Assembly (NCBI GenBank): GCA_017609405.1
Contig: JAFCDZ010000005.1
Span: 1 to 45,059 of the forward strand
Reading direction: 5' to 3'
Length of the DNA stretch: 45,059 nt
Source of the DNA: Candidatus Pacearchaeota archaeon
GTDB lineage: Archaea; Nanobdellota; Nanobdellia; Pacearchaeales; GW2011-AR1
The position numbers and the translations under genes are program-made. Shown here in pieces: positions 111-26,152 of this stretch. The notes under the pieces were generated by a model. It was not told where the DNA came from. It did no database searches and was given only the letters and a program-made list of their open reading frames with translations. The stretch's first letter is position 1. Every line of letters starts with the position of its first letter.

Positions 111-224
111 ATAACTAACTATCCTTATCTTTTTAATGTTTTCTAACTATAAAAATTTAAGGTTTTATCTTTCAAAAAAGGGCTTTCAAAGATTTTTTAA
201 ACATTTCTAAGTATAGATTTATAT

Positions 225-299
225 GCCCGAGTAGCTCAGTCTGGATAGAGCGTCTCCCTCCTAAGGAGAAAGTCGAAGGTTCAAATCCTTCCTCGGGCG
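225..299 (+). tRNA. tRNA-Arg (anticodon CCT)
   Basis: Acceptor GCCCGAG/CTCGGGC, D arm GTAGCTCAG, anticodon loop CTCCTAA, T arm GAAGGTTCAAATCCTTC. Confidence 0.93.
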
Positions 300-309
300 C
301 TTTGTTTAT

Positions 310-333
310 ATTTTAATAAATGATTCTTTTCCA
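310..333. repeat. 24-bp sequence identical to 2832-2855 (3' end of the HisRS-family gene)
   Basis: attttaataaatgattcttttcca occurs exactly at both places. Confidence 0.9.
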
Positions 334-460
334 ATTAACAACTTTAGAAGAAATCAAAAAAGAATATAAAAAGCAAAAAAGAAACTGGAGATAGGGGTGA
401 TTTAAAAACCAAAAAGTTGAACAAAAAAAGTTTTTTAAATATCTTTATCTATATTTTTTT

Positions 461-808
461 ATGAATCCCGATGAGATAATAAAAGAATTAAACTTCAAAT
501 GGTGCGGGGAATATATAATAGGAATTGCTCAAGATTTTGAAAGTAAGGGTGTGCTTATGTGTGCTTTTATGAATAAAGAAGCAGTTAAGAAAACCTTGGA
601 AACCGGTTATGCCCGCTATTATAGCACCTCAAGAAAAAAGTTATGGAAAAAAGGAGAAGAATCAGGACACACGCAAAAAATTATTAAAATCATACCAGAT
701 TGCGATAAAGACACTCTTTTAATGTTAGTTAAGCAAAAAGGAGCTGCATGCCATACTGGAAACAAAACTTGCTTTTACAAAAAAAATATCTTTCAAGAAA
801 ATGAATGA
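461..808 (+). CDS. hisI: Phosphoribosyl-AMP cyclohydrolase
   Basis: HisI motifs: GVLMCAFMNKEA, YYSTSRKKLWKKGEESGHTQ, GAACHTGNKTCFY. Confidence 0.95.
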   Translation: MNPDEIIKELNFKWCGEYIIGIAQDFESKGVLMCAFMNKEAVKKTLETGYARYYSTSRKKLWKKGEESGHTQKIIKIIPDCDKDTLLMLVKQKGAACHTGNKTCFYKKNIFQENE

Positions 809-1082
809 ATTAAAAAAATTATTTGAAATAATTGAAAAAAGAAAAAGAAATCCCAAAGAAGGAAGTTACACCAATTACCTATTTAACAAAGGCGAGAAAA
901 AGATTTTAGCAAAAATAAAAGAAGAATGCAAAGAAGTTATAAAAGCTGCAAAGAAAGAAGGAAACAAAAGATTAATTGAAGAAATTGATGATTTAATTTA
1001 CCATGTTTTTGTATTAATGGCTTCAAGAGGATTAAAATTTGAAGATTTAGAAAAAGAAGAAAAAAAGAGGATGAAAGAATAG
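801..1082 (+). CDS. hisE: Phosphoribosyl-ATP pyrophosphatase
   Basis: HisE pattern SYTNYLFNKGEKKILAKIKEECKEVIKAAK..EEIDDLIYHVFVLMASRG; overlaps hisI by 8 bp. Confidence 0.9.
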   Translation: MNELKKLFEIIEKRKRNPKEGSYTNYLFNKGEKKILAKIKEECKEVIKAAKKEGNKRLIEEIDDLIYHVFVLMASRGLKFEDLEKEEKKRMKE

Positions 1083-1096
1083 AATTACAACATATT

Positions 1097-1805
1097 TTAT
1101 TCTTTAGCAATTCTAATTGCCTCTTCTAAACTAAAATTATTCAAATATAATGCAGTTCTAATAACAACAGCATAAATTCCAATTTCTCTTAATTTTTCTA
1201 TATCTTTTAAAGAGCCAATTCCTCCAGAAACTATTAAAGGTATCTAATAGATTCTCTAAATTTTTTAAATATTCATAGTCAACACCTTCCATTCTACCTT
1301 CTTTTTCTATACATGTAACCAAAAAAGCATCACAATAGTTCTGTAAGTTTTTCCCTGTTTCAATGGGGTCTAAATCAGTTACTTCTTCCCAACCTTTTAT
1401 AGCTACCTTTTTGTTTTTAAAATCAAGAGCAACAATAATTTTTTCTTTTCCAACTTTCCTTGCTAAATCCACAAGAAATTCAGGATCTTGAAGTGCTTTT
1501 GTTCCAACAATAATTTTCTCTGCTCCTGCATTAATAAGTTCATATGCTCTCTCTATGCTTCTAATGCCCCCTCCTATCTCTGTTTCTACTCTTATTTTTT
1601 TAATAATCTCTTTAATTACTTCAAGATTATTTCCTATTCCTTTAGCAGCATCTAAATCAATTATATGTATTCTCTCTGCACCCCCTTGTTGAAATTTCTC
1701 TGCAACCCGGAAAGGATCTATCAAAAATCTTTCAGTACCAAATTTTCCTCCAATAAGTTGTGTGCATTTGCCTTCTTTTATATCAATCGCTGGAAAAATT
1801 TTCAT
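1097..1805 (-). pseudogene. hisA: HisA isomerase with an internal frameshift at about 1240-1245
   Basis: N-terminal about 185 aa is typical HisA (FPAIDIKEGKC, IGGGIRS). After LENLL the canonical IPLIVSGGIGSLKDIEKLREIGIYAVVIRTALYLNNFSLEEAIRIAKE continues in another frame to a stop at 1097-1099. Confidence 0.85.
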
Positions 1806-1821
1806 TTTAACTTAAAAGGAT

Positions 1822-2445
1822 TTATTTTTTAATTAAAATTTTTGGAATTTTCTTGAAAAGATTCTTATCGCTAATAATTACAATATCTGATTCAAAGATT
1901 TTCTCATAACATTCTAATCCTGCTTCTTCTGCAGATTTTCCACTATAAAAAATATCTATAATCAAATCAACAATTCCAAAAGAAAATGCAAATTCAACGC
2001 CTCCTCTCAAATAAATTTTTCTAAATTCATATCCTCTTCTCTCCAAAGAGAGTAGATAATTGTTTGAAATTTTTTTATATTTATTACTTATCGCGATGTT
2101 TAATTTTTTTCCCAAATCTTTCAATTTTTTTCCTTTCGGACCCATTAAGCATAAAACAGGTTTACCAAATTTTGCATTTTTGTCTTTCCATTCATACCTT
2201 CTTATAATATCCAAATTCTCTTTTTGATTTTCTAACTCCCACTCTCTAAATAAATCCTCTCCAGTAACTCCCATTGCATTTTTTCCTCGATTAATTAAAC
2301 TACAAACAAAAAAAGGTATATCCTCTCCACGAACTTCTAAAACTTCAAAGTTAGAAATATTCTCATCATTGATTAGTTTCTCAATAATTCTTCTGCACGA
2401 TTTAAGCCCCCCATTTTTAGGAACAAAGATTATCCACTTTTCCAT
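1822..2445 (-). CDS. hisG: ATP phosphoribosyltransferase, short form (about 207 aa, no C-terminal regulatory domain)
   Basis: VRGEDIPFFV, AMGVTGEDL, VEFAFSFGIVDLIIDIFYSGKSAEEAGL; start placed at MEKWII. Confidence 0.85.
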   Translation of the reverse strand: MEKWIIFVPKNGGLKSCRRIIEKLINDENISNFEVLEVRGEDIPFFVCSLINRGKNAMGVTGEDLFREWELENQKENLDIIRRYEWKDKNAKFGKPVLCLMGPKGKKLKDLGKKLNIAISNKYKKISNNYLLSLERRGYEFRKIYLRGGVEFAFSFGIVDLIIDIFYSGKSAEEAGLECYEKIFESDIVIISDKNLFKKIPKILIKK

Positions 2446-2688
2446 TTTAAAACATTTCAAAAAAATTTAATTTAGAAAAAGATGAACAAAACACCTGCAA
2501 CAAATCTTTACTATACTCAAGAGTAAAAAAATCAGAAAAAAATCTACCAAAGGTGGGGGTAACTCCTGAGTTTAATAATCATGTTTAAATTAAAGAAAAT
2601 GAATTTATAAATTTTTCCGAACTGAAATGAAAAGAAAAATAAATAATAAATCTATTTAAAAACTTTCAAAGCGAAATTTTCTAATAAT

Positions 2689-2845
2689 ATGAAAATGGCA
2701 GCGAAAAAACCTCAAGCTATAAAATACAAAATGTTGTCGCAATTACATCTTTAGGAAATTTGTTCCTTTAACTAAATTAACAAGAACATAGTCAGACATT
2801 GGACCAAATCAAGAATTTGAAAAATTATTAAATTTTAATAAATGA
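2689..2845 (+). pseudogene. Decayed fragment resembling the N-terminal part of archaeal TATA-binding protein
   Basis: Split frames give MKMAAKKPQAIK / IQNVVAITSLGNLF / PLTKLTRT*SDIGPNQEFEKLL; two frameshifts and one TAG. NVVA..LG and PNQ.F resemble the first TBP repeat. Confidence 0.45.
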
Positions 2846-3958
2846 TTCTTTTCCAGTTTTAAGATTCTTCACTTTTGCCTTTCCAGAATTCGCTTCTTTT
2901 TCTCCAATAAAAATTGCATTAGAAATCTTATACGAGTTTGCATATTCTAAAGCTTTTGAAGGTTTTCCATAAAAAATAATAACTTTTTTCCCTTCGCTTC
3001 TTAATTTTTCTGCAAGTTTTATTGTTTTTCTATCTTGGTTCAATGAAATAAGAATATAATCAATTCTTGGTATTTCAATATCAGCTAATAAAAATACAGG
3101 CTCTAATCCTAATCCAAAACCAGTTGATTGAATTCCATTAACCATAAATGTTCCTCCTCCAACTAATGAAACACCCAATTTTTTTGACCAAACCTCAAAA
3201 ACATTCCCAGTATAATACGAAAACCCTCTTGCAAGAGTTGGTTTAAATTCTATCTCAACACCAAACATTTTACAATATCTTTCTAACTCCTCTATATCCT
3301 GATAAGAAGAATATTTCTTAAAAAAAGAGATAGGATTCTTTAAAATTTCCAAAACTTTTTCAGCATTATATTTCTTTAATTCTTTTTTGATTTCTTTCTC
3401 GCCTAATTTATCCAATTTATCAATTAATCTTATAACATCTTCAAAATATTTTTCTTTTACTTTGTTTTCTTTAAGTATCTCATTTAACAGCTTTCTAGAA
3501 TTTACAAAGGTTTTTACTGGAATTTTTAACTCTTTAAAAATTCTTTTTAACATAGCAAAGTTTTCTGCCTCGTCTTTTATTGTTGCTCCAACAATATCTG
3601 CATCACATTGAATAAACTGCCTTAATCTCCCTTTTTTTATTGGCTCGTCCCTAAAATTATATCCAATTTGATATCTCTTAAAAGGAAGTTTCTTGTTTTT
3701 TGAAATTCTTTTTAATTGAAAGGTGAATTCATATCTTAAAGCAAGTTTTCTTCCGCCCCTATCCTTTAATTTAAATATATCCCTCACAGCATCATCTTCT
3801 TGATTTTCTTTTTTAACAAACTCCTCATACTCAATAATCGGAGTCTCAGCTGGCTCAAACCCATAAAGCTCAAAAATTTCCCTAATTTTATCGAGAATGA
3901 GCTTTCTTTTTACTGCTTCTTCTCCTAAAAAATCTCTAAATCCTTTCACAGTTTCCAT
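2828..3958 (-). CDS. hisS: Histidyl-tRNA synthetase family protein (motif 3 variant)
   Basis: VKGFRDFLG, YQIGYNFRDEPIKKGRLRQFIQCDADIVG, LARGFSYYTGNVFEV, and a C-terminal anticodon-binding-like domain. The ORF-track start lies inside the tRNA; MET at 3958 preferred. Confidence 0.88.
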   Translation of the reverse strand: METVKGFRDFLGEEAVKRKLILDKIREIFELYGFEPAETPIIEYEEFVKKENQEDDAVRDIFKLKDRGGRKLALRYEFTFQLKRISKNKKLPFKRYQIGYNFRDEPIKKGRLRQFIQCDADIVGATIKDEAENFAMLKRIFKELKIPVKTFVNSRKLLNEILKENKVKEKYFEDVIRLIDKLDKLGEKEIKKELKKYNAEKVLEILKNPISFFKKYSSYQDIEELERYCKMFGVEIEFKPTLARGFSYYTGNVFEVWSKKLGVSLVGGGTFMVNGIQSTGFGLGLEPVFLLADIEIPRIDYILISLNQDRKTIKLAEKLRSEGKKVIIFYGKPSKALEYANSYKISNAIFIGEKEANSGKAKVKNLKTGKESFIKI

Positions 3959-3968
3959 TTTAAAAAAA

Positions 3969-4040
3969 GGCGACCGTCGAGAATCGAACTCGAGCCCTGC
4001 GGACCACAACCGCATGTTCTACCATTAAACTACGGCCGCC
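3969..4040 (-). tRNA. tRNA-His (anticodon GTG), with a G-1 encoded
   Basis: Revcomp GCGGCCGTAGTTTAATGGTAGAACATGCGGTTGTGGTCCGCAGGGCTCGAGTTCGATTCTCGACGGTCGCC. Confidence 0.93.
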
Positions 4041-4335
4041 ATAATTTAATTTAAATGAAATATCTTCTTTTAAAACTTTGTTAATAGATTTTTTTATTTG
4101 TTTTAATAAGTTATTCTTAGAATAAGGGAAATTTGTATAACTGGGAGAATTCCTAACAATGGGGACAACTCCAAAGTTTAGTTTCCATATTTAACTTAAA
4201 TAAATGAGATTTATAAATTTTTCTTATTTTCTTTAATTTTAATGTCTGGTTATAAATTATCGCTTTTTCTTTGAATAATCCCTCTTTTTTAAATCAGTAA
4301 GATTTAAAACCTCTTTTTATTACATTTTAATATCT

Positions 4336-4407
4336 GCACGGGTAGTTCAGTGGTTAGAATCTCTGGCTTCCAACCAGATGACCCGGGTTCGAATCCCGGC
4401 CCGTGCA
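4336..4407 (+). tRNA. tRNA-Gly (anticodon TCC)
   Basis: GCACGGG...CCCGTGC acceptor, anticodon loop CTTCCAA, T arm CCGGGTTCGAATCCCGG. Confidence 0.93.
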
Positions 4408-4415
4408 TTTTTAAG

Positions 4416-5456
4416 ATGGAGCAAAAATTTGATTTTTGGAAATGGCATGATAGGAATTATTTAAAACTTTTAATTATCCCTCTATTAATTTTTATTTTGT
4501 CAATATCTTATGTAGCTTATTTTTATTCTCAAAACAATGATTTCATAAGGAAGGATATCTCACTAACAGGTGGGACAACAATAACTCTTTATGATAATTC
4601 TGTGGATATCTCTAAACTGAGAGAAGATTTGTCTGAAAAACTTGAAGATTTGAACTTGAGAGAAATTTCAAACATTTTTACAAAGAAAAGAGAAGCCATT
4701 CTTATTCAGACAAAATCCAATCCTGATAAAGCAAAAAAAATTTTAGAAGATTATCTTGGATACTCTTTAAATGAGAAAAATAGCAGTTTTGAATTTACTG
4801 GACCTTCATTAAGTCAAAATTTCTATTTACAACTTTTACTTTCAATAATCTATGCGTTTTCTTTTATGGGTGTTGTGGTATTCTTTTTATTTAGTAAGAA
4901 ATCAAAGCAGAAAAATTTAACTCTTCTTCTGATACTTCTTTCTCCAACTCTATTTATTTTCCTTAAAATAATTTCAATAAACTTAGCAATTATTATTGCC
5001 CTTATTTCCCTTATAATAAGTTTATTCATCTTTTTCACATATAATATTCCTAGTTTTGCAGTTATTGTTTCAGCGTTTGCAGATATCTTTATGACAATTG
5101 CAATAATAGATCTTTTGGGAATAAGGGTTTCTAGTGCCGGAATTGTTGCTCTTCTTATGCTTATTGGTTATTCTGTTGATACAGATATTCTTCTTACTAC
5201 AAGAATGTTAAAGAGAGAGGAAGGGGACCTGAATGAACGAATTTTTTCAGCATTTAAAACAGGTATTACAATGACATTAACTTCTATCTTAGCTATTTTT
5301 ACAGCATATCTAATAACCCATAACATTTCAGATATACTTGGGCAAATCTTTTTTATAATCCTTGTTGGTTTATTCTTTGATTTAATGAATACCTGGATAA
5401 CAAATGTATCAATATTAAAATGGCATCTCTTATCAAGAGAGGGGGTTAGAAAATGA
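4416..5456 (+). CDS. secF: Protein-export membrane protein SecF
   Basis: LTGGTTITLY, GPSLSQ, GYSVDTDILLTTRMLKREEGDLNERIFSAFKTGITMTLTSI; start moved to the ATG at 4416 outside the tRNA. Confidence 0.92.
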   Translation: MEQKFDFWKWHDRNYLKLLIIPLLIFILSISYVAYFYSQNNDFIRKDISLTGGTTITLYDNSVDISKLREDLSEKLEDLNLREISNIFTKKREAILIQTKSNPDKAKKILEDYLGYSLNEKNSSFEFTGPSLSQNFYLQLLLSIIYAFSFMGVVVFFLFSKKSKQKNLTLLLILLSPTLFIFLKIISINLAIIIALISLIISLFIFFTYNIPSFAVIVSAFADIFMTIAIIDLLGIRVSSAGIVALLMLIGYSVDTDILLTTRMLKREEGDLNERIFSAFKTGITMTLTSILAIFTAYLITHNISDILGQIFFIILVGLFFDLMNTWITNVSILKWHLLSREGVRK

Positions 5457-6985
5457 AGCTAACTTGGAGAATCTGGTTGATGATTCTTTTTTTAATATTA
5501 TCTTTGATTTCTTTATTTGGAATACCTCCTACTTTCTTTAAAGAAGGTGTTTTAATAACAAGTGTTAAGCCAAATTCAACAGCATCTTTTTATGGTCTTA
5601 AAGAAGGTGAAATTATACTTAAGATAAATAATCAAAAAATATCCTCTGTTGAAGAATTCTCAAAAATAGTTGAGGGGTTATTCGTTGACAATTCTTCAAA
5701 GAAATTAGAGATAACAACAGACGGAAACAATGTTATTATTTTTACAAATAAACCTCTTGAAATAACTGTTTCAGAAATCCCAAAAACAAGATTAAAACTA
5801 GGGTTGGATCTTGTAGGGGGTTCCAGAGCTTTAGTAACTGCTGAAAACAAATCCCTCTCTGAACAAGAATTAAATGATTTAATATCTGTTGTTAGTCAGA
5901 GATTAAATGTTTATGGGATTTCTGATGTAACTGTAGCACCAGTTTCTGATTTAAGTGGAAATAGATATATGTTAATAGAAATTGCTGGAGCAACACCAAA
6001 AGACCTTGAAGATTTAATATCTCACCAAGGAAAGTTTGAAGCAAAAATCGGGAATCAAACTGTTTTTGTTGGTGGAAAAAAAGACATAACTTCTGTTGGA
6101 AGAAATGATGCAAAATATTCAGGGATTGAAAGGTGCGGGAAAGATAGTTCTGGAAAATACTATTGCAATTTTAGATTTGCCGTTTTTCTTAGTGAAGATG
6201 CAGCAAAAAGACATGCTGAAATAACAAAAAATCTTGAAGTTAATCAAACCCCCCAAGGAGCATATCTCTCTAAAAAGTTGGATCTTTATCTTGATGATAA
6301 ATTAGTTGATAGTTTATTAATCTCTTCTGGATTAAAAGGAAGAGTGACTACACAAATTTCAATATCTGGTTCTGGAACTGGAAGCACCCAGGAAGAAGCT
6401 CTTAAAAACGCAAAAGAGAATATGAATAAACTCCAGACAATCTTAATAACAGGAAGTTTGCCATATAAATTAAAAATTGTTAAACTTGATACAATCTCCC
6501 CAACTCTTGGAAAAAGTTTTATTTCAATAATTTTAATTGCAGGGTTATTATCTCTCTTTGCTGTTGCAATTGTTGTTTTTGTAAGATATCAAGATATAAA
6601 ATACTCTTTATCTCTTTTATTAACAAGTATTGGTGAATTAACAATTATTCTTGGTGTTGCTGCATTTATTAATTGGAATCTCGACCTTCCAAGTATTGCA
6701 GGTATTTTAGCAACAATTGGTACTGGAATTGACAGTCAGATAATTGTCTTAGATGAATCAACAAAATCAAGATTAAATATAAGCCTAAAACAAAAAATTA
6801 AAAGAGCTTTTTCAATTATAATTGGGGCTTATTTTACCTCTGTTGTAGCATTATTACCTCTTCTTGTTGCTGGTGCAGGATTATTAAAGGGGTTTGCTAT
6901 AACAACAATGATTGGTATTACAATAGGTGTATTTATTACTCGTCCAGCATTTGCTGATTTAATAAAATTATTTGAGAGAGATTAA
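5453..6985 (+). CDS. secD: Protein-export membrane protein SecD with an N-terminal PDZ-like segment
   Basis: LKLGLDLVGGSRALV, SQRLNVYGISDV, IGTGIDSQIIVLDE; ATGA overlap with secF. The region after the first TM reads like PDZ (VLITSVKPNSTASFYGLKEGEIILKINNQKI). Confidence 0.92.
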   Translation: MKLTWRIWLMILFLILSLISLFGIPPTFFKEGVLITSVKPNSTASFYGLKEGEIILKINNQKISSVEEFSKIVEGLFVDNSSKKLEITTDGNNVIIFTNKPLEITVSEIPKTRLKLGLDLVGGSRALVTAENKSLSEQELNDLISVVSQRLNVYGISDVTVAPVSDLSGNRYMLIEIAGATPKDLEDLISHQGKFEAKIGNQTVFVGGKKDITSVGRNDAKYSGIERCGKDSSGKYYCNFRFAVFLSEDAAKRHAEITKNLEVNQTPQGAYLSKKLDLYLDDKLVDSLLISSGLKGRVTTQISISGSGTGSTQEEALKNAKENMNKLQTILITGSLPYKLKIVKLDTISPTLGKSFISIILIAGLLSLFAVAIVVFVRYQDIKYSLSLLLTSIGELTIILGVAAFINWNLDLPSIAGILATIGTGIDSQIIVLDESTKSRLNISLKQKIKRAFSIIIGAYFTSVVALLPLLVAGAGLLKGFAITTMIGITIGVFITRPAFADLIKLFERD

Positions 6986-7971
6986 ATAAATATTATAAAG
7001 CCAAGGATAATAATTAAAATTTGAAATCCATTAATTAAATAAACCACATCACTTTCACGAACATTCTTCTTTAACTTCTTTAAAATCCATATTGCAAGGT
7101 GTTCTAATCCATATATTTTATCATAAGGCATATCTAAGCTTCCATCAGATTTTAATCTTCCAAAGCTTTGTTTTTCTAATTTTCCTCTTGATTTTAAGAT
7201 TGTTTCAAGTATATATGGAATAAAAAAGAAAACAACTATTTTTTCAATATTCCCTAAAATTGCTAATGAGGCAATCATAATTCCAACAGGATATGTAAGT
7301 GAATCTCCAGGAAAAACTATTGCAGGATTTTTATTATATATATAAAATGCAAGAAGACTTGCCACCATTATTAATGAAATTAAACTTAGTGTGGAATTTC
7401 CAGAGATATATAATACAATTGAAATTGCAGTTAAAATTATAATTCCTTGACCAGACTCAAGCCCATTATATCCTGCTAAGAAATTAAAGGTGGCTCCTGC
7501 ACCAATAATTCCTATCGGGATAATTAAAAGAGGATATAAAATTCCAAAATCAACCCCCATCATAACTGATTCTCCTGCATTAATAACAACAAGAGGTATT
7601 GAAGCAAAAAATAAGAGCATAATTCTCCATTTTTTTTCAAGGCCTCCACGAACCCATCCTAAGATATCATCCACAAAACCAATTATCAGTGCAATACAAA
7701 CAGCATTGAGTAATGCTAATATTTGGGTTATTGTTTTTGAATCACCCCCTTTAAAATAAAAAACTGTTATAGCAATATATAAGAGCGTTCCAATGATAAA
7801 GGATAATGTGGTTATTAATCCACCAGAACCAGCAACTTTTTTTGAGTGTTCTGGTTTGTGCATATCTCTCCAAACTAAACCAATTTGCCGAGCTTTTTTT
7901 ATCCAAAAAGGAATTCCTATAATAGATGTTAAAAAACTTATTAAGATTGGCAAGATTAATAGCAGATTCAT
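6982..7971 (-). CDS. Polyprenyl-phosphate GlcNAc-1-phosphate transferase (AglH/Alg7/MraY superfamily)
   Basis: Multi-TM; FVDDILGW, NFLAGYNGLESGQG, FPGDSLTYPVG motifs. Confidence 0.85.
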   Translation of the reverse strand: MNLLLILPILISFLTSIIGIPFWIKKARQIGLVWRDMHKPEHSKKVAGSGGLITTLSFIIGTLLYIAITVFYFKGGDSKTITQILALLNAVCIALIIGFVDDILGWVRGGLEKKWRIMLLFFASIPLVVINAGESVMMGVDFGILYPLLIIPIGIIGAGATFNFLAGYNGLESGQGIIILTAISIVLYISGNSTLSLISLIMVASLLAFYIYNKNPAIVFPGDSLTYPVGIMIASLAILGNIEKIVVFFFIPYILETILKSRGKLEKQSFGRLKSDGSLDMPYDKIYGLEHLAIWILKKLKKNVRESDVVYLINGFQILIIILGFIIFI

Positions 7972-8014
7972 AAAAAACATTATTCAAAGGGTTATATAAA
8001 TTTTTTGAATAATT

Positions 8015-8878
8015 TTAAAAGAACATAGGTGTTATATAAACCTCAATTATTCCAGCAATAAATATTATAATTATAGCAATAATTAAAAGGAGTAAAACAT
8101 TTTCAATCACCTGAATTAATCTTTTGCTTTTGATCCCATGTCTTATCACACCAACTCCAAACATTCCTCCTGCCAAAGCAGCAATAAAATAAGCAATCAT
8201 TTCAGGTAAACCATGTATAGAGTATCTTAAGAATGCAGAAGGTATCTCAATTATTTTTTTTTGGGCAAATAGGACCATTGCAGAAGACATAACACTTGCA
8301 TTCCAAGATAAAACGAAAATAGCCCCTGCCCCAAAAATTAATGAAAAAATAAGAGTAAATATAAGGACATATAAATTATTTTCAACAATTGATAAAAGAA
8401 AACCAACCTTAGTAACATTTCCAGTAATATCTTTTTGAGGTTCTATAATACCCATATAACTTTTAATACACTCTTGAATTAATGCAGGGCTATTTATTTC
8501 ACAATATTTTTCTATTTGGGCATTAAATAATATGGGGTCTCCTAATATAATAAACCAAAAAGAAAACGCAACTAAGAAACCAACAAATAACCATATAAAA
8601 GATTCAATAGCATCCCAATGAGCCTTCCATACTGCTACTAATCCCTCTACATTTTCATCTTCTTTTTCTTCTTTTACTATTAATCTATACATAAATGGGA
8701 GAGTAAACATTGTGGAAAAAGTAACAACAATCATACCTGCATATTTCTTAAGAACAATATCCCCTCCAAAAAACCACTTAACCAAGATAAGTGAAAGAGA
8801 TGCATAAACCATACCAACAAAGAACATCTCCCACGGTTTTTTTTCAGCTCTTAGAGGATTTATAATAATCTCTAACAT
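8015..8878 (-). CDS. SpoIIM/DUF95-like integral membrane protein
   Basis: Multi-TM; SWNASVMSSAMVLFA..., HGLPEMIAYFIAALAGGMFGVGVIRHG pattern. Confidence 0.8.
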   Translation of the reverse strand: MLEIIINPLRAEKKPWEMFFVGMVYASLSLILVKWFFGGDIVLKKYAGMIVVTFSTMFTLPFMYRLIVKEEKEDENVEGLVAVWKAHWDAIESFIWLFVGFLVAFSFWFIILGDPILFNAQIEKYCEINSPALIQECIKSYMGIIEPQKDITGNVTKVGFLLSIVENNLYVLIFTLIFSLIFGAGAIFVLSWNASVMSSAMVLFAQKKIIEIPSAFLRYSIHGLPEMIAYFIAALAGGMFGVGVIRHGIKSKRLIQVIENVLLLLIIAIIIIFIAGIIEVYITPMFF

Positions 8879-8969
8879 AAAATAAGATATTCCCCCTTGT
8901 TTTTAAAACTTTGTAGGGATATAATGAAATCTATTTTGTTGAATAAAAATCTTTAAAATTAATTTTATT

Positions 8970-9251
8970 AGCAATTAAAATTGTAAGGGTAATAAATCAA
9001 ACTCATGAAGAACAAGGGAGAATTGATAGGGTTTCTAGATTAATTGAGATAGTCCAAGAAGTTGTCGGAGAAGCTCCTTTTCATGTTAGTAAATTTTGGA
9101 TTTCCTTTTCTCGTTAGGGTATTGAGATTCTTCCTAAGAGTACAACCTTCTAAGTTTGTGTAAAAAAAGAGAAACTTATAGTTTAGCTTTAGGGGTTGCT
9201 CAAAGATGTGAAGAAGAAACCGAAGAAGAATATGAATTAGTGCAGGATTAT
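8970..9251 (+). pseudogene. Unassigned degenerate coding remnant
   Basis: Protein-like stretches in two frames: AIKIVRVINQTHEEQGRIDRVSRLIEIVQEVVGEAPF... then KKRETYSLALGVAQRCEEETEEEYELVQDYSRFENS*, separated by stops. Confidence 0.3.
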
Positions 9252-9312
9252 TCAAGGTTTGAAAACTCCTAACAATAAAAGCATTTTTATATCTTTTTTT
9301 CTATCTCTTTAT

Positions 9313-10113
9313 ATGAAAAAGAGGGAACTTTTCAATAGAATCTTAAAGGATATAAAGAATATAAAGATCCAAGGAGCTACTAATGTAGCAAAAGCAGCAC
9401 TAAGAGCATATTATCTTTTCCCAGAAGAGAAAAATAAAATAATCTCTGTTAGACCAACAGAGCCTTTATTATTTAATGTTCTAGAGCAGGCAAAAACAAA
9501 ATCCTACTCCGAGATACTTAAACACTTCAAGATTGTTCAAGAAAAAATAAATAAATATGTCTATAAATTAATTAAGAATGGAGATGTTATTATGACCCAT
9601 TGTCATTCATCCACTGTTGTTAATGCTTTAATTTATGCAAAGAAAAAAGGAAAAAAATTTGAGGTTTATAATACTGAAACAAGACCTCTTTTTCAAGGGA
9701 GGCTAACTGCAAAAGAATTAAGAAAAGCAGGAATTAAGGTGACTCAATTTGTTGATTCTGCAATTGATATTGCTTTATTAAAAGAACAAGGAACAAAAAA
9801 AGTAAATAAGGTTTTTATTGGTTCTGATGCTATTCTTAAAAAAGGAATTATCAATAAGGTTGGCTCAGCAGTTATAGCAAAACTTTCTAAAAAATATAAG
9901 ATACCCTTTTATGTTGTTGCAGATTCTTGGAAATTCTTTCCAAAACCTATTAAACTTGAGAAGAGAACTGGAAACGAAATTTGGAAAAACAGACCCTTTG
10001 GTATAAAAATAATTAATCCTGCTTTTGAATTTGTTCATAAAAAATATATTACTGCACTTATATCTGAATTAGGAATTCTAAACTTCAAAGATTTTCTAAA
10101 AAAAGTTAACTAA
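9313..10113 (+). CDS. eIF2B alpha/beta/delta family; likely ribose-1,5-bisphosphate isomerase
   Basis: GDVIMTHCHSSTVVNALIYAKKKGKKFEVYNTETRPLFQGR, FIGSDAI, IPFYVVADSWKF. Confidence 0.85.
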   Translation: MKKRELFNRILKDIKNIKIQGATNVAKAALRAYYLFPEEKNKIISVRPTEPLLFNVLEQAKTKSYSEILKHFKIVQEKINKYVYKLIKNGDVIMTHCHSSTVVNALIYAKKKGKKFEVYNTETRPLFQGRLTAKELRKAGIKVTQFVDSAIDIALLKEQGTKKVNKVFIGSDAILKKGIINKVGSAVIAKLSKKYKIPFYVVADSWKFFPKPIKLEKRTGNEIWKNRPFGIKIINPAFEFVHKKYITALISELGILNFKDFLKKVN

Positions 10114-22118: not shown

Positions 22119-22914
22119 TTTTTCCCTCCAAACGTTTTTTTAAATCTTCAATAGCTTTTTCAGTATAGATTGTTAATCTTCCAATACCATTTTTTGCCGC
22201 AAAGTCTATAACACTAACTTGCCTTGCTGGTTTTATATCAACACCTTTTATTTTTAACTTTTCATTGTCCCCAATTACTATTAGTGCTCCAGCATTTGAT
22301 TTATATTTTCTCCCCCTCATTTTTCCTCTTCCACTTCTAATCTTCTTCTTTTTTATTGCGAGAGAATATATTTTTTCTCCAAGAATCTTTTTTATTGCTG
22401 AGAAGAATTCTTTTGTTTTCTTAATTCCAGTTAATTTTGATTCTACAATGAGAGGTAGTTTTAGGTCTTCTTCTAATGTTTTATACCTCTTTTTTAATTC
22501 TTCTATTTTTGTTGTTGCTGTTAAGCAGGATATTAAAGCTATCCTTAATTCTTTTTTATTTATTTTTGCGTTATTCTCTTTGTTTTTTGGTGGATGAGAC
22601 CTTCTTCCACCTACAGCATTTGGTATTTCTGCTGCTTGCCATACAAACCTACTTCCTCTTCGAGATAATATCTTTCTTGGAACCCTTGATATTCCATATC
22701 CATATCCGCTTCTCCAAACATGCCTTCTATGAACTATCTTTCCTTGAGCATTTTGCTGTCTTCCAGCAAGAGGGGAATTAGAATAGGGTTGTATTTTTCT
22801 TTTTGCTTCTAAAACTTTTAATACAATATCCTCTCTAATTGTTGAACTAAAGAATTTTGGAAGCTCAATTTCTTTCTTCTTTTTACCATCTAATCCGATT
22901 ACTTCTGTTTTCAT
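22099..22914 (-). CDS. rpl4: Ribosomal protein uL4
   Basis: SPLAGRQQNAQGKIVHRRHVWRSGYGYGISRVPRK, GGRRSHPPK. Confidence 0.95.
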   Translation of the reverse strand: MKTEVIGLDGKKKKEIELPKFFSSTIREDIVLKVLEAKRKIQPYSNSPLAGRQQNAQGKIVHRRHVWRSGYGYGISRVPRKILSRRGSRFVWQAAEIPNAVGGRRSHPPKNKENNAKINKKELRIALISCLTATTKIEELKKRYKTLEEDLKLPLIVESKLTGIKKTKEFFSAIKKILGEKIYSLAIKKKKIRSGRGKMRGRKYKSNAGALIVIGDNEKLKIKGVDIKPARQVSVIDFAAKNGIGRLTIYTEKAIEDLKKRLEGKNEDNKN

Positions 22915-23861
22915 TTTATTATCCTCCTAAATTCATATTCTTTTTTTAATTGGTCTTTTGAAGGTCTTAATGCATGTGTTATTATTACTTGTCTTTTTGC
23001 AGGACCTTGCACTGAACCTGTTATAATAATGTAATCTGTTTTTATATTTCCATAGTTTTTTATATTCTCTATTTTTTCACTCTCTTCCTCTTTTCCAATG
23101 AAGACTATCTTTTGATTATAATGTGTTCTTGTAAAGAAACCTGTCTGTCCAGCCATTGGGGCTCTGAATGTAACATAAGCTGGATGCCATGGACCAATTG
23201 AACCAGGGGTTCTTCTACCTTTTTCAGATTTGTGTTGTTTTAGGCTTATTCCAAATCTTTTTACAGGGCCTTGGAATCCCTTACCTTTTGTAACTCCACG
23301 AATATCAACTAATTCTCCAACTTCAAAAACATCAAAGATTCTGAAGCCATTTTCAAGAGAATTTTTTATAAATTCTAATTTTTCTTCCTTTGTTCCATTT
23401 AATCCAATTTCTGAAATATCAGGTGTTTTTTTAATTCCTGTCTTTTTAACCTCACTATAAACAATAACCCTAACATCATCATAATCTTCTGGAGAAAAAT
23501 CCTCAATTTTTTTTGTCTCTTTTTTTGGTATCTTTATTTTTGATTTTAATCTTTTATCAATATTTTTTTGTATAACTTCTCCAATAACCTTACCCCCTTT
23601 ATAAAATCTAATTGATAAAACCCTCATTCTTGGACATTCAAGAATTGTACAGGCTATTGGAATATCTTTTCCTTTATTCATTGAATTAGGAGTATTATCT
23701 CTTATTAAAACAGAAGCCATACCTGCTTTATAACATATAAATCCTTTGAGGTTTTTTCCATTAGAAATAGCATCCCAATTAACTCTATGCAAAATCTTTC
23801 TTGCTCTCTTTCTTGGCCAAAATTGCAGGCTTCCTTTTCTCGGTGATTTTCTCGTAGGCAT
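22911..23861 (-). CDS. rpl3: Ribosomal protein uL3
   Basis: RKSPRKGSLQFWPRKRA, VTKGKGFQGPVKRFGI, TPGSIGPWHPAYVTFRAPMAGQTGFFTRTHYN. Confidence 0.96.
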   Translation of the reverse strand: MPTRKSPRKGSLQFWPRKRARKILHRVNWDAISNGKNLKGFICYKAGMASVLIRDNTPNSMNKGKDIPIACTILECPRMRVLSIRFYKGGKVIGEVIQKNIDKRLKSKIKIPKKETKKIEDFSPEDYDDVRVIVYSEVKKTGIKKTPDISEIGLNGTKEEKLEFIKNSLENGFRIFDVFEVGELVDIRGVTKGKGFQGPVKRFGISLKQHKSEKGRRTPGSIGPWHPAYVTFRAPMAGQTGFFTRTHYNQKIVFIGKEEESEKIENIKNYGNIKTDYIIITGSVQGPAKRQVIITHALRPSKDQLKKEYEFRRIIK

Positions 23862-24003: not shown

Positions 24004-25023
24004 TTAACATTCAACACCAAAAGCCTTACAGAATCCTTCAAAGATTACTTTGGACAGAAAATCTTTGCTAATCTTTTTAGAATCTTTTTCATTTTGAGGG
24101 GTCTTGAAATAATACTCTTCTTCTTTAATTCTTTTTAATGTTTCTTGAGGAATTTCAAATTTTTTATTTAATTCTTTTTTTAAGGGATAAAAAGAATAAT
24201 AAAGTCCATGAGCAAAGAAGATTAACCACTCTTTTCTTGTTTTCTTACTTAATTTATTTATGATTGTTCTAATGTTTTCTTCTAGTTCTTTAAGGAAATT
24301 TTCAAGATTTCTGATTTCTTTTCCATTTACCAGAACTTTACTTGCCTTCTTTAGGGGAATTTTTAATAAGTGATTAAAAAAATCAACTTTAGGGTTTGTA
24401 GAAATTTTTTCCACAATTGTTATTTGATCGTAGGGGAAATCTTTTATCTCTTTTATAAAAGGGTTTTTTAAATGAAAATAATCTTTAACCCAATACCTCT
24501 CGCCTTTTTCTTCATAAGGGCCATGAAAAGAATATCCCAGTCTCATTGATGTAGGGTATATTAACTCTAAATACATAAATAAAAGAAAGGATATTTTATT
24601 TGTCAAGGATATATCCTTCATAAAATCTTTCGAAAAAAGGGATTTATCAACAAAAGAATCCTGTAGAATATTTAATTTACCTTTACAATAGGGATCTTTT
24701 CTAACAACTTTTAATACTTCAAAAATTTGATTAGCTAATTCAAACCTCTCTTCGTTACTTAAATCAGAATCATTAAGGTAGGTTAAGTAGGTAGTCACTA
24801 ATGTAGGGTGTTCAAATAATCTCGCAATTTCTTTATTTGAATAATCTTTCTTTTTCAATTCCCTAAATGTATTTAATAAATCTCTACAAAATTCTTTGCC
24901 GAGATAATGAGAGAGATCATTTGGAGTAAAAGGCCAAAGAGCACTTAATGTATCTCCTGAATGCAAATCTGCTAAATCTTCTCCCATTTGTTTAGCCAAT
25001 TTTATTATTTCTTGTTTAGTCAT
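24004..25023 (-). CDS. Unassigned 339-aa protein coupled to a swivelling domain
   Basis: Long ORF with no family I recognise; conserved-looking motif MRLGYSFHGPYEEKGERYWVKDYFHLKNPF; start overlaps the stop of the upstream gene (25016). Confidence 0.75.
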   Translation of the reverse strand: MTKQEIIKLAKQMGEDLADLHSGDTLSALWPFTPNDLSHYLGKEFCRDLLNTFRELKKKDYSNKEIARLFEHPTLVTTYLTYLNDSDLSNEERFELANQIFEVLKVVRKDPYCKGKLNILQDSFVDKSLFSKDFMKDISLTNKISFLLFMYLELIYPTSMRLGYSFHGPYEEKGERYWVKDYFHLKNPFIKEIKDFPYDQITIVEKISTNPKVDFFNHLLKIPLKKASKVLVNGKEIRNLENFLKELEENIRTIINKLSKKTRKEWLIFFAHGLYYSFYPLKKELNKKFEIPQETLKRIKEEEYYFKTPQNEKDSKKISKDFLSKVIFEGFCKAFGVEC

Positions 25024-25342
25024 TTTTTATAAATTCTATTTTGTTATTTGTGGCGTCTAATTTTATAATTGAACCTTCTGGAATCTTTTTCTTAGCTTCA
25101 ATAACCCCCATAATACAGGGTTTATTCATCTCTCTTGATATGATGGCTAAATGACAGAGCTCACCACCCACTTCACTAATTATTCCTCCTGCTTTCATAA
25201 ATGCCAACGAATAAAGAGGGGAGTTGTTAGAAGTAATAATAATGCTATTTTCATCGATTCTATCTACATCTTCTAAATTATTTAAGTGGATGACCCTTCC
25301 TTCAATCTTCCCCTTACAAGCAACAATCCCTGAATAAACCAT
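25016..25342 (-). CDS. Stand-alone PEP-utilizing enzyme mobile (phosphohistidine swivelling) domain
   Basis: IITSNNSPLYSLAFMKAGGIISEVGGELCHLAIISREMNKPCIMGV matches the GG.xCHxAIxxRE phosphohistidine motif; the rest of a PEP synthase-type enzyme is absent. Confidence 0.85.
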   Translation of the reverse strand: MVYSGIVACKGKIEGRVIHLNNLEDVDRIDENSIIITSNNSPLYSLAFMKAGGIISEVGGELCHLAIISREMNKPCIMGVIEAKKKIPEGSIIKLDATNNKIEFIKND

Positions 25343-25423: not shown

Positions 25424-26152
25424 TCAGGCAGCAAATTCATGTTCATTTACAATCTCTTCTCCATCAATCTTTGCTTTTCTTATTACTTTTCCAATTCTTA
25501 TTGCAGCTTCTCTCATTTTAGCAAAGTCATTGCTATCTTTCAATTCTTCAGGTATTTCAAGAGATTCTATTATAAAGTCATGGCTTATTCTTGCCTCTGA
25601 AAAATCTTCTTTTTCAAAAATTATCTTTTTAACAATCTCTTTGTCTTTTGTCTGTATTTTACAAAAATCAACTTTTTTTTCATCATCTCCTTTATTACTT
25701 GGCTTTCCAGATTTTGGAGCTTTTGGTTTTATTTTTAGTTTTGTTCCGTCAGAGGATTCAAAACTGAATGCAAAAAAAGCTCTTGGAACCAAATTTAAGA
25801 AATTAAGAATATCTTCTCCGCTTAATTCCTCTTCGATTATATATCTTTTTACTCCCTGAAATTGCTTTATTTGAGCATTTTTTAATAGTTCTTGAAATTT
25901 AGGAATTTCATTTAGGTTCCTTGTGGATACAATTGCACCACTAACTTTTGTTTTGTTTTTTCCCATTTTTTTAGCGACTTCTCTTACAAGGTCATTTGCA
26001 AATTCAGAATCTGTAGATATCTTATAAGTTCCTCCAGAAACCTTTGCTTCTATGTTTGCCATATTTAGAAATTTCCCCCTACTGAATTTTTGAAAATAAA
26101 AATGAACAGATTCATCAATGGAATCATCAAACACCTTTTTTATAAATGTCAT
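25424..26152 (-). CDS. Uncharacterised protein
   Basis: 242-aa ORF of normal composition; no recognised domain. Confidence 0.65.
   Translation of the reverse strand: MTFIKKVFDDSIDESVHFYFQKFSRGKFLNMANIEAKVSGGTYKISTDSEFANDLVREVAKKMGKNKTKVSGAIVSTRNLNEIPKFQELLKNAQIKQFQGVKRYIIEEELSGEDILNFLNLVPRAFFAFSFESSDGTKLKIKPKAPKSGKPSNKGDDEKKVDFCKIQTKDKEIVKKIIFEKEDFSEARISHDFIIESLEIPEELKDSNDFAKMREAAIRIGKVIRKAKIDGEEIVNEHEFAA

Follow-up and report, generated by a model that had tools for sequence, protein, structure and literature searches.

A stand-alone phosphohistidine swivel domain and its 339-residue partner in a Pacearchaeota genome: probable components of a split swivel-type dikinase

Introduction

In HpeHI, PpsAB and RPH, an ATP-grasp domain phosphorylates a histidine of the swivel domain, and the phosphate is passed on to a substrate domain (PMC12167813, PMC4844700). 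HpeHI, PpsAB and CreHI are split dikinases of two components acting on small molecules; HpeH, which carries the substrate and swivel parts, moves phosphate between acceptors by itself, and the catalytic histidine is essential (PMC12167813). RPH-type enzymes form a large family whose substrate domains have diverged (PMC4844700). The substrate domains known from swivel-type dikinases are few in kind, i.e., the phosphoenolpyruvate (PEP)/pyruvate barrel, the RPH-type domain and others. The gene pair analysed here is located in a stretch of 45,059 nucleotides from a Candidatus Pacearchaeota archaeon (assembly GCA_017609405.1, contig JAFCDZ010000005.1), referred to as the window. It encodes a stand-alone phosphohistidine swivel domain of 108 aa (PF00391; 25016..25342, minus strand) and a partner protein of 339 aa (24004..25023, minus strand).

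The pair probably supplies two components of a three-component split dikinase of the swivel type, in which the partner is the predicted acceptor or substrate-binding component. The acceptor domain appears new. An ATP-grasp (PPDK_N) protein would phosphorylate His64 of the swivel in trans, the phospho-swivel would dock on the partner, and the phosphate would be transferred to a small molecule or biosynthetic intermediate bound there. The partner would take the place of the PEP/pyruvate barrel of PEP synthase or of the rifampin-binding domain of RPH, and the chemistry would be a variant of that of known dikinases. No description of stand-alone swivel domains with a partner of this type was found in the open-access literature.

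Results and discussion

The gene pair in the window

The swivel gene was identified as an open reading frame with a Pfam match to PF00391 alone (E 2.3e-17, residues 29-99, model positions 1-71 of 72). No ATP-grasp or PEP-binding domain was detected in its product with Pfam, NCBIfam or PDB sequences, and its PDB sequence matches were the swivel regions of PEP synthase, RPH, enzyme I and similar proteins. The phosphohistidine motif SEVGGELCHLAIISRE (25130..25177, minus strand) includes SEVGGELCH, an intact version of SxxGGxxxH, the rule for swivel histidines (PMC12167813). By this rule, His64 (codon 25151-25153, minus strand) is the predicted phospho-accepting residue; the position two residues before it is occupied by leucine, where PEP synthase has a regulatory threonine. 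The swivel stop codon (TAA) and the partner start codon (ATG) share the 8 nt ATGACTAA (25016-25023, minus strand), from which we infer translational coupling. The initial annotation, which had reported a stand-alone swivel with an intact motif and an overlapping partner gene, was correct in these points and in the coordinates.

The assembly holding the window comprises 740 kb in 31 contigs and is 87% complete. Within the window, the pair stands between a downstream ribosomal-protein block (the likely L3 gene, recognised by eye, at 22911-23861) and unrelated genes. This block and an AMP-phosphorylase-like gene farther upstream appear archaeal from their reading frames and Pfam matches. The neighbourhood therefore says little about function. 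A 242-aa protein encoded upstream of the pair (25424-26152) had no family match in Pfam or NCBIfam.

The FAM339 family

The partner had no significant match in Pfam, NCBIfam, PHROG or PDB sequences, in agreement with the initial annotation, which had assigned it to no recognised family. Weak Pfam and NCBIfam hints to DUF2096_N, TFX_C and RNA polymerase subunit L were far below the cut-offs and were dismissed. The partner was assigned to a family named FAM339 in this analysis (open reading frame, leave-out profile and family alignment), defined by a match to the leave-out profile together with a GPY core. The profile was enlarged stepwise from the window protein and a paralogue in the same genome, and genomes of the class, the phylum, the family and one other order were searched with it. 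This yielded 23 further members, all from small-genome archaea of the same phylum. A leave-out profile of 22 homologues, built without the window protein and its paralogue, recovered both (E 1e-26 and 5e-25, respectively), so that family membership is independent of the query itself. The distribution is sparse, with FAM339 in 21 of 335 genomes of the best-sampled order (two of them with weak or broken matches) and in 4 of 138 genomes of the family to which the window belongs. Single- and two-sequence scans of genome contigs and viral contigs gave no FAM339 match, and the family was absent from the phage records searched.

The family core motif GYSFHGPYEEKGERYWVKDYF (residues 163-183; 24475..24537, minus strand) was located by column conservation and corresponds to the first beta-hairpin of the predicted sheet in a homologue model. 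Among 24 members, Y170 was conserved in 24, G168 in 22 and P169 in 18. The distinctive partner motif that had been pointed out therefore stands in its GPY core, but HGPY as a whole is not uniform, as its histidine is often replaced. Candidate active-site residues are contained in DFFNH (residues 214-218; 24370..24384, minus strand), in which the aspartate is kept in 18/24 and the histidine in 21/24 members. The best-conserved positions of the window protein include P31, D110, G168-P169-Y170, D214, H218 and D233/N233-G234. As a guess from conservation, the active site might be formed by the GPY hairpin together with D214 and H218. Two further copies (L067, 6795-7268; L125, 1313-1519) are fragmentary, with broken frames or missing parts.

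An AlphaFold2 model was computed for the FAM339 member of genome G487, about 16% identical to the window protein, using a 25-sequence alignment (predicted local distance difference test score, pLDDT, 91.4; predicted template modelling score 0.90). It has an alpha-helical N-terminal half and a beta region that opens with the GPY hairpin, plus one long helix and some smaller ones. Foldseek searches with this model found no match in the PDB (best E 0.53, query-normalised TM-score ≤0.15) and none among viral structures. For the window protein itself, a model computed from four sequences had a pLDDT of 57, too low to be relied on.

Gene linkage and domain fusions

Of the 22 loci that could be assessed, 17 have FAM339 adjoining a swivel domain or fused to one, and both gene orders occur; L065, L105 and L108 (contig edges) and the fragments L067 and L125 were excluded. 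The linkage looked for in the initial annotation is thus conserved. A swivel gene followed by an overlapping FAM339 gene was present in the window and at L007, L063, L068, L098, L099, L100, L101 and L103, and the reversed order at L070. Besides the window and its paralogue, eight loci have the two genes as same-strand neighbours, mostly overlapping; the overlap is 8 nt in the window and L007 and 10-50 nt at other loci. At L104, L106 and L109, two swivel genes precede a FAM339 domain placed behind an extra domain. The phosphohistidine motif is kept in every paired swivel.

The paralogous pair L007 is located on contig C20 of the window genome (6429-7451 and 7444-7779) and has the same gene order. 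Its partner and swivel are 38% and 52% identical to those of the window, respectively, and its swivel motif, SERGGSLCH, fits SxxGGxxxH.

Fused versions, also proposed as a check, were found in two architectures. Swivel-FAM339 fusions are encoded at the distant loci L107 (491 aa) and L118 (468 aa), and FAM339-PPDK_N-swivel fusions at L066 (370-2640, 756 aa) and L102 (6836-9124, 762 aa) in genomes G481 and G238. In Pfam, the triple fusions matched PPDK_N with E <1e-70 and the swivel with E <1e-24. They are close relatives and were counted as one fusion event, which is probably what they represent. Their layout, as judged from the domain content, would be that of a complete dikinase with the second substrate domain replaced, and supports the acceptor reading. 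The initial annotation had left open whether the partner is a new donor or a new acceptor enzyme. The acceptor role gains support because two related genomes fuse FAM339 to ATP-grasp and swivel, whereas the donor role is weakened, as a PPDK_N domain distinct from FAM339 is the donor on the ATP side.

It is quite improbable that FAM339 is unrelated to phosphotransfer and merely co-transcribed with the swivel. Five loci lacking a swivel and the fold without PDB match would agree with this explanation, but linkage at this frequency, in two gene orders and two fusion architectures, is far above random placement, because a genome of 1-2 Mb contains from about 1 up to 12 or more swivels. At such numbers, chance adjacency should affect a few percent of the loci at most. 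The partner thus proved neither to belong to a known unrelated family nor to lack conserved linkage.

At L104 (6988-9925), L106 (6767-9729), L109 (8094-10781) and L101 (4580-7189), two different stand-alone swivels were found with an X-like domain and FAM339. The X-like domain is related with 75% hhalign probability to the array domain of the X-swivel proteins described below, and HD-like proteins are encoded upstream in some cases. These loci possibly hold two acceptors with one carrier each.

The ATP-grasp component

PPDK_N was present in all 18 FAM339 genomes checked (18/18). Frames of stand-alone size (about 294-331 aa) were found in G379 and in at least six other genomes (G165, G487, G511, G409, G508 and G364). 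In G379, a 314-aa stand-alone PPDK_N gene is located 5.6 kb from the FAM339-swivel pair L070. The genes in between encode a GHMP kinase, a pyridoxal phosphate (PLP) enzyme, an epimerase, an AMP-binding enzyme and a methyltransferase, and a CN-hydrolase gene follows. This cluster (119-9756) also includes a PRA isomerase gene, and its PLP enzyme is decarboxylase-like.

The PPDK_N copies detected in the window genome belong to full-length PpsA (PEP synthase) and PPDK only, and their ATP-grasp domains are candidates for charging the window swivel. A dedicated ATP-grasp gene serving the window pair could be missing from the incomplete assembly. The "two-gene system" of the initial annotation is probably incomplete, with an ATP-grasp component implied that is not adjacent in the window genome.

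Neighbouring genes

Radical SAM genes are neighbours at L007, L098 and L066, and DegT aminotransferase genes at L066 and L102. Together with the L070 cluster, these neighbours suggest a role in biosynthesis; a biosynthetic neighbour common to all FAM339 loci was looked for, and none was found. Before the L007 pair, and overlapping it, lies a gene for an acetolactate-synthase-type thiamine diphosphate (ThDP) enzyme; a radical SAM gene comes after the pair, and the opposite strand encodes a radical SAM/SPASM protein as well as a PqqD-like one. These surroundings look like a biosynthetic cluster; the region 4271-9416 possibly encodes a peptide- or small-molecule-modifying pathway. At L063 (2418-8050), MurG-, MurB-, MurA/EPSP- and MraY-like peptidoglycan-type genes surround the swivel-FAM339 pair; the genome is from the same archaeal class, and contamination is possible. 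At L069 (5413-6800), a stand-alone FAM339 gene directly follows a gene for a 133-aa protein that resembled a response regulator by eye, with no swivel nearby.

Swivel domains of enzyme I of the phosphotransferase system (PTS) feed regulatory relays. FAM339 might have a sensory or regulatory role in a PTS-like relay, responding to whether the swivel is phosphorylated, and would then not be where a small molecule receives its phosphate. Some FAM339 members without a swivel, one of them beside the likely response regulator, and the position of the window pair amid housekeeping genes instead of a pathway cluster would fit such a role. Nevertheless, we consider it unlikely: the FAM339-ATP-grasp-swivel fusions are arranged like metabolic dikinases, biosynthetic enzymes surround several FAM339 loci, none of the FAM339 fusions seen involved a DNA-binding or signalling domain, and the response-regulator call was made by eye.

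Slightly less likely again is a relay that yields no stable phospho-metabolite, in which FAM339 uses the phosphate to drive a condensation or activation at the expense of ATP, as in a ligase (cf. PigC and RedH), or removes it as a phosphohistidine hydrolase. The PigC and RedH models, which have the same domain types, recognise the swivel, and in the L007 cluster the system occurs alongside radical SAM proteins and a ThDP enzyme. Genes for HAD-type phosphatases are located beside the swivel systems within the L149, L152 and L154 arrays, and a marginal match was obtained beside the L118 fusion. HAD phosphatases were also suspected by eye beside L098, L100 and L103 and were unconfirmed; the negative test at L098 and L103 counts against this explanation, and the type of product cannot be read from sequence.

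Relationships of swivels and partners

Pairwise identities of paired swivels and of their FAM339 partners were correlated (r 0.82, 0/10,000 permutations), for which shared ancestry alone could suffice. Most FAM339-linked swivels cluster together. The FAM339 proteins of the window, L007 and L070 form one group (95/95).

Several observations weigh against the split-dikinase proposal. The swivels of the window and L007 group with those of the X-swivel arrays (split support 89/99; long branches), and the partner specificity of swivels may therefore not be strict. Five FAM339 members (L060, L061, L062, L064 and L069) have no adjacent swivel; the first four form one close subgroup with 99/100 support. 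Apart from the GPY core, the family has no strictly invariant residue of catalytic appearance, and His218 is replaced by asparagine in the triple fusions and by glutamate in L069. No stand-alone ATP-grasp gene was detected in the 87%-complete window genome, nor was one found beside most pairs. Finally, hhalign comparison of FAM339 with RPH and a Rhodococcus homologue gave a probability of 0.0.

The grouping of the swivels may mean that the window lineage has swapped its swivel for another, as would be consistent with a modular carrier. The same grouping and the non-adjacent ATP-grasp could also be read as signs that the pair is the decaying remnant of a larger enzyme, but both frames are intact and duplicated, the positions conserved in FAM339 are retained and many families show the same split arrangement, which makes decay very improbable.

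The split dikinase with FAM339 as acceptor is thus retained as the probable reading. A wider version, in which FAM339 is both a new fold and a new acceptor class, and one shared ATP-grasp charges several interchangeable carriers and acceptors for biosynthesis in an archaeal three-protein relay, is held more tentatively. If the proposal is correct, the enzyme class gains a further acceptor domain without a PDB fold match, occurring in split, fused and biosynthetic settings, and new chemistry in largely uncultured archaea with small genomes becomes accessible by a concrete route. Direct tests are possible with the triple-fusion homologues, in which a single protein is expected to contain the complete machinery. 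It also raises the question of whether separate swivels act as soluble phosphate carriers charged in trans by a shared ATP-grasp.

Comparison with known systems

In the same archaea, X-swivel proteins of about 430-530 aa are often encoded in tandem arrays; they combine a helical domain of no assigned family with a C-terminal swivel. They resemble the window pair in their swivels, with which the window swivel groups. Homology of FAM339 to their N-terminal domain was considered and was not supported, as hhalign revealed no sequence similarity. Tandem arrays were found at L150 (103-17507), L149, L151, L152 and L154. L150 has ten consecutive X-swivel genes with twelve modules, including one protein of 1,414 aa with three modules. 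A stand-alone ATP-grasp (PPDK_N) gene was present in three of six array regions examined (L149, L152 and L154), together with HAD or hexapeptide-transferase genes. The arrays look like a multi-acceptor dikinase system.

The window pair differs from PTS enzyme I and HPr in having neither a PEP-binding barrel nor an HPr-binding domain in Pfam and NCBIfam; an HPr gene elsewhere was not searched for. With PEP synthase and PPDK it shares the swivel domain, for which the best PDB sequence matches were found there, but the pair has neither the ATP-grasp (PPDK_N) domain nor the PEP/pyruvate barrel, in whose place FAM339 stands. No Pfam match to the PEP/pyruvate-binding C-terminal barrel was obtained for the partner, and no fold match to it for the modelled homologue.

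A superficial HGPxE-like motif prompted a comparison with the RPH substrate domain as a possible homologue of FAM339, which was supported neither by hhalign nor by Foldseek; no RPH structure was among the 50 best Foldseek matches listed for the homologue model. Like the proposed system, HpeHI, CreHI and PpsAB (phenylphosphate synthase) carry the ATP-grasp on a different chain from the swivel, and the swivel histidine motif is the same. In those enzymes one chain joins the swivel to a substrate domain of RPH-like type, whereas the window encodes the swivel and the predicted substrate part in separate genes, and FAM339 has neither RPH-like sequence nor a PDB fold match. RPH itself is composed of ATP-grasp, substrate domain and swivel, the three kinds of unit that are also joined in the FAM339 triple fusions, but their order is ATP-grasp-RIF domain-swivel in RPH and FAM339-ATP-grasp-swivel in the fusions.
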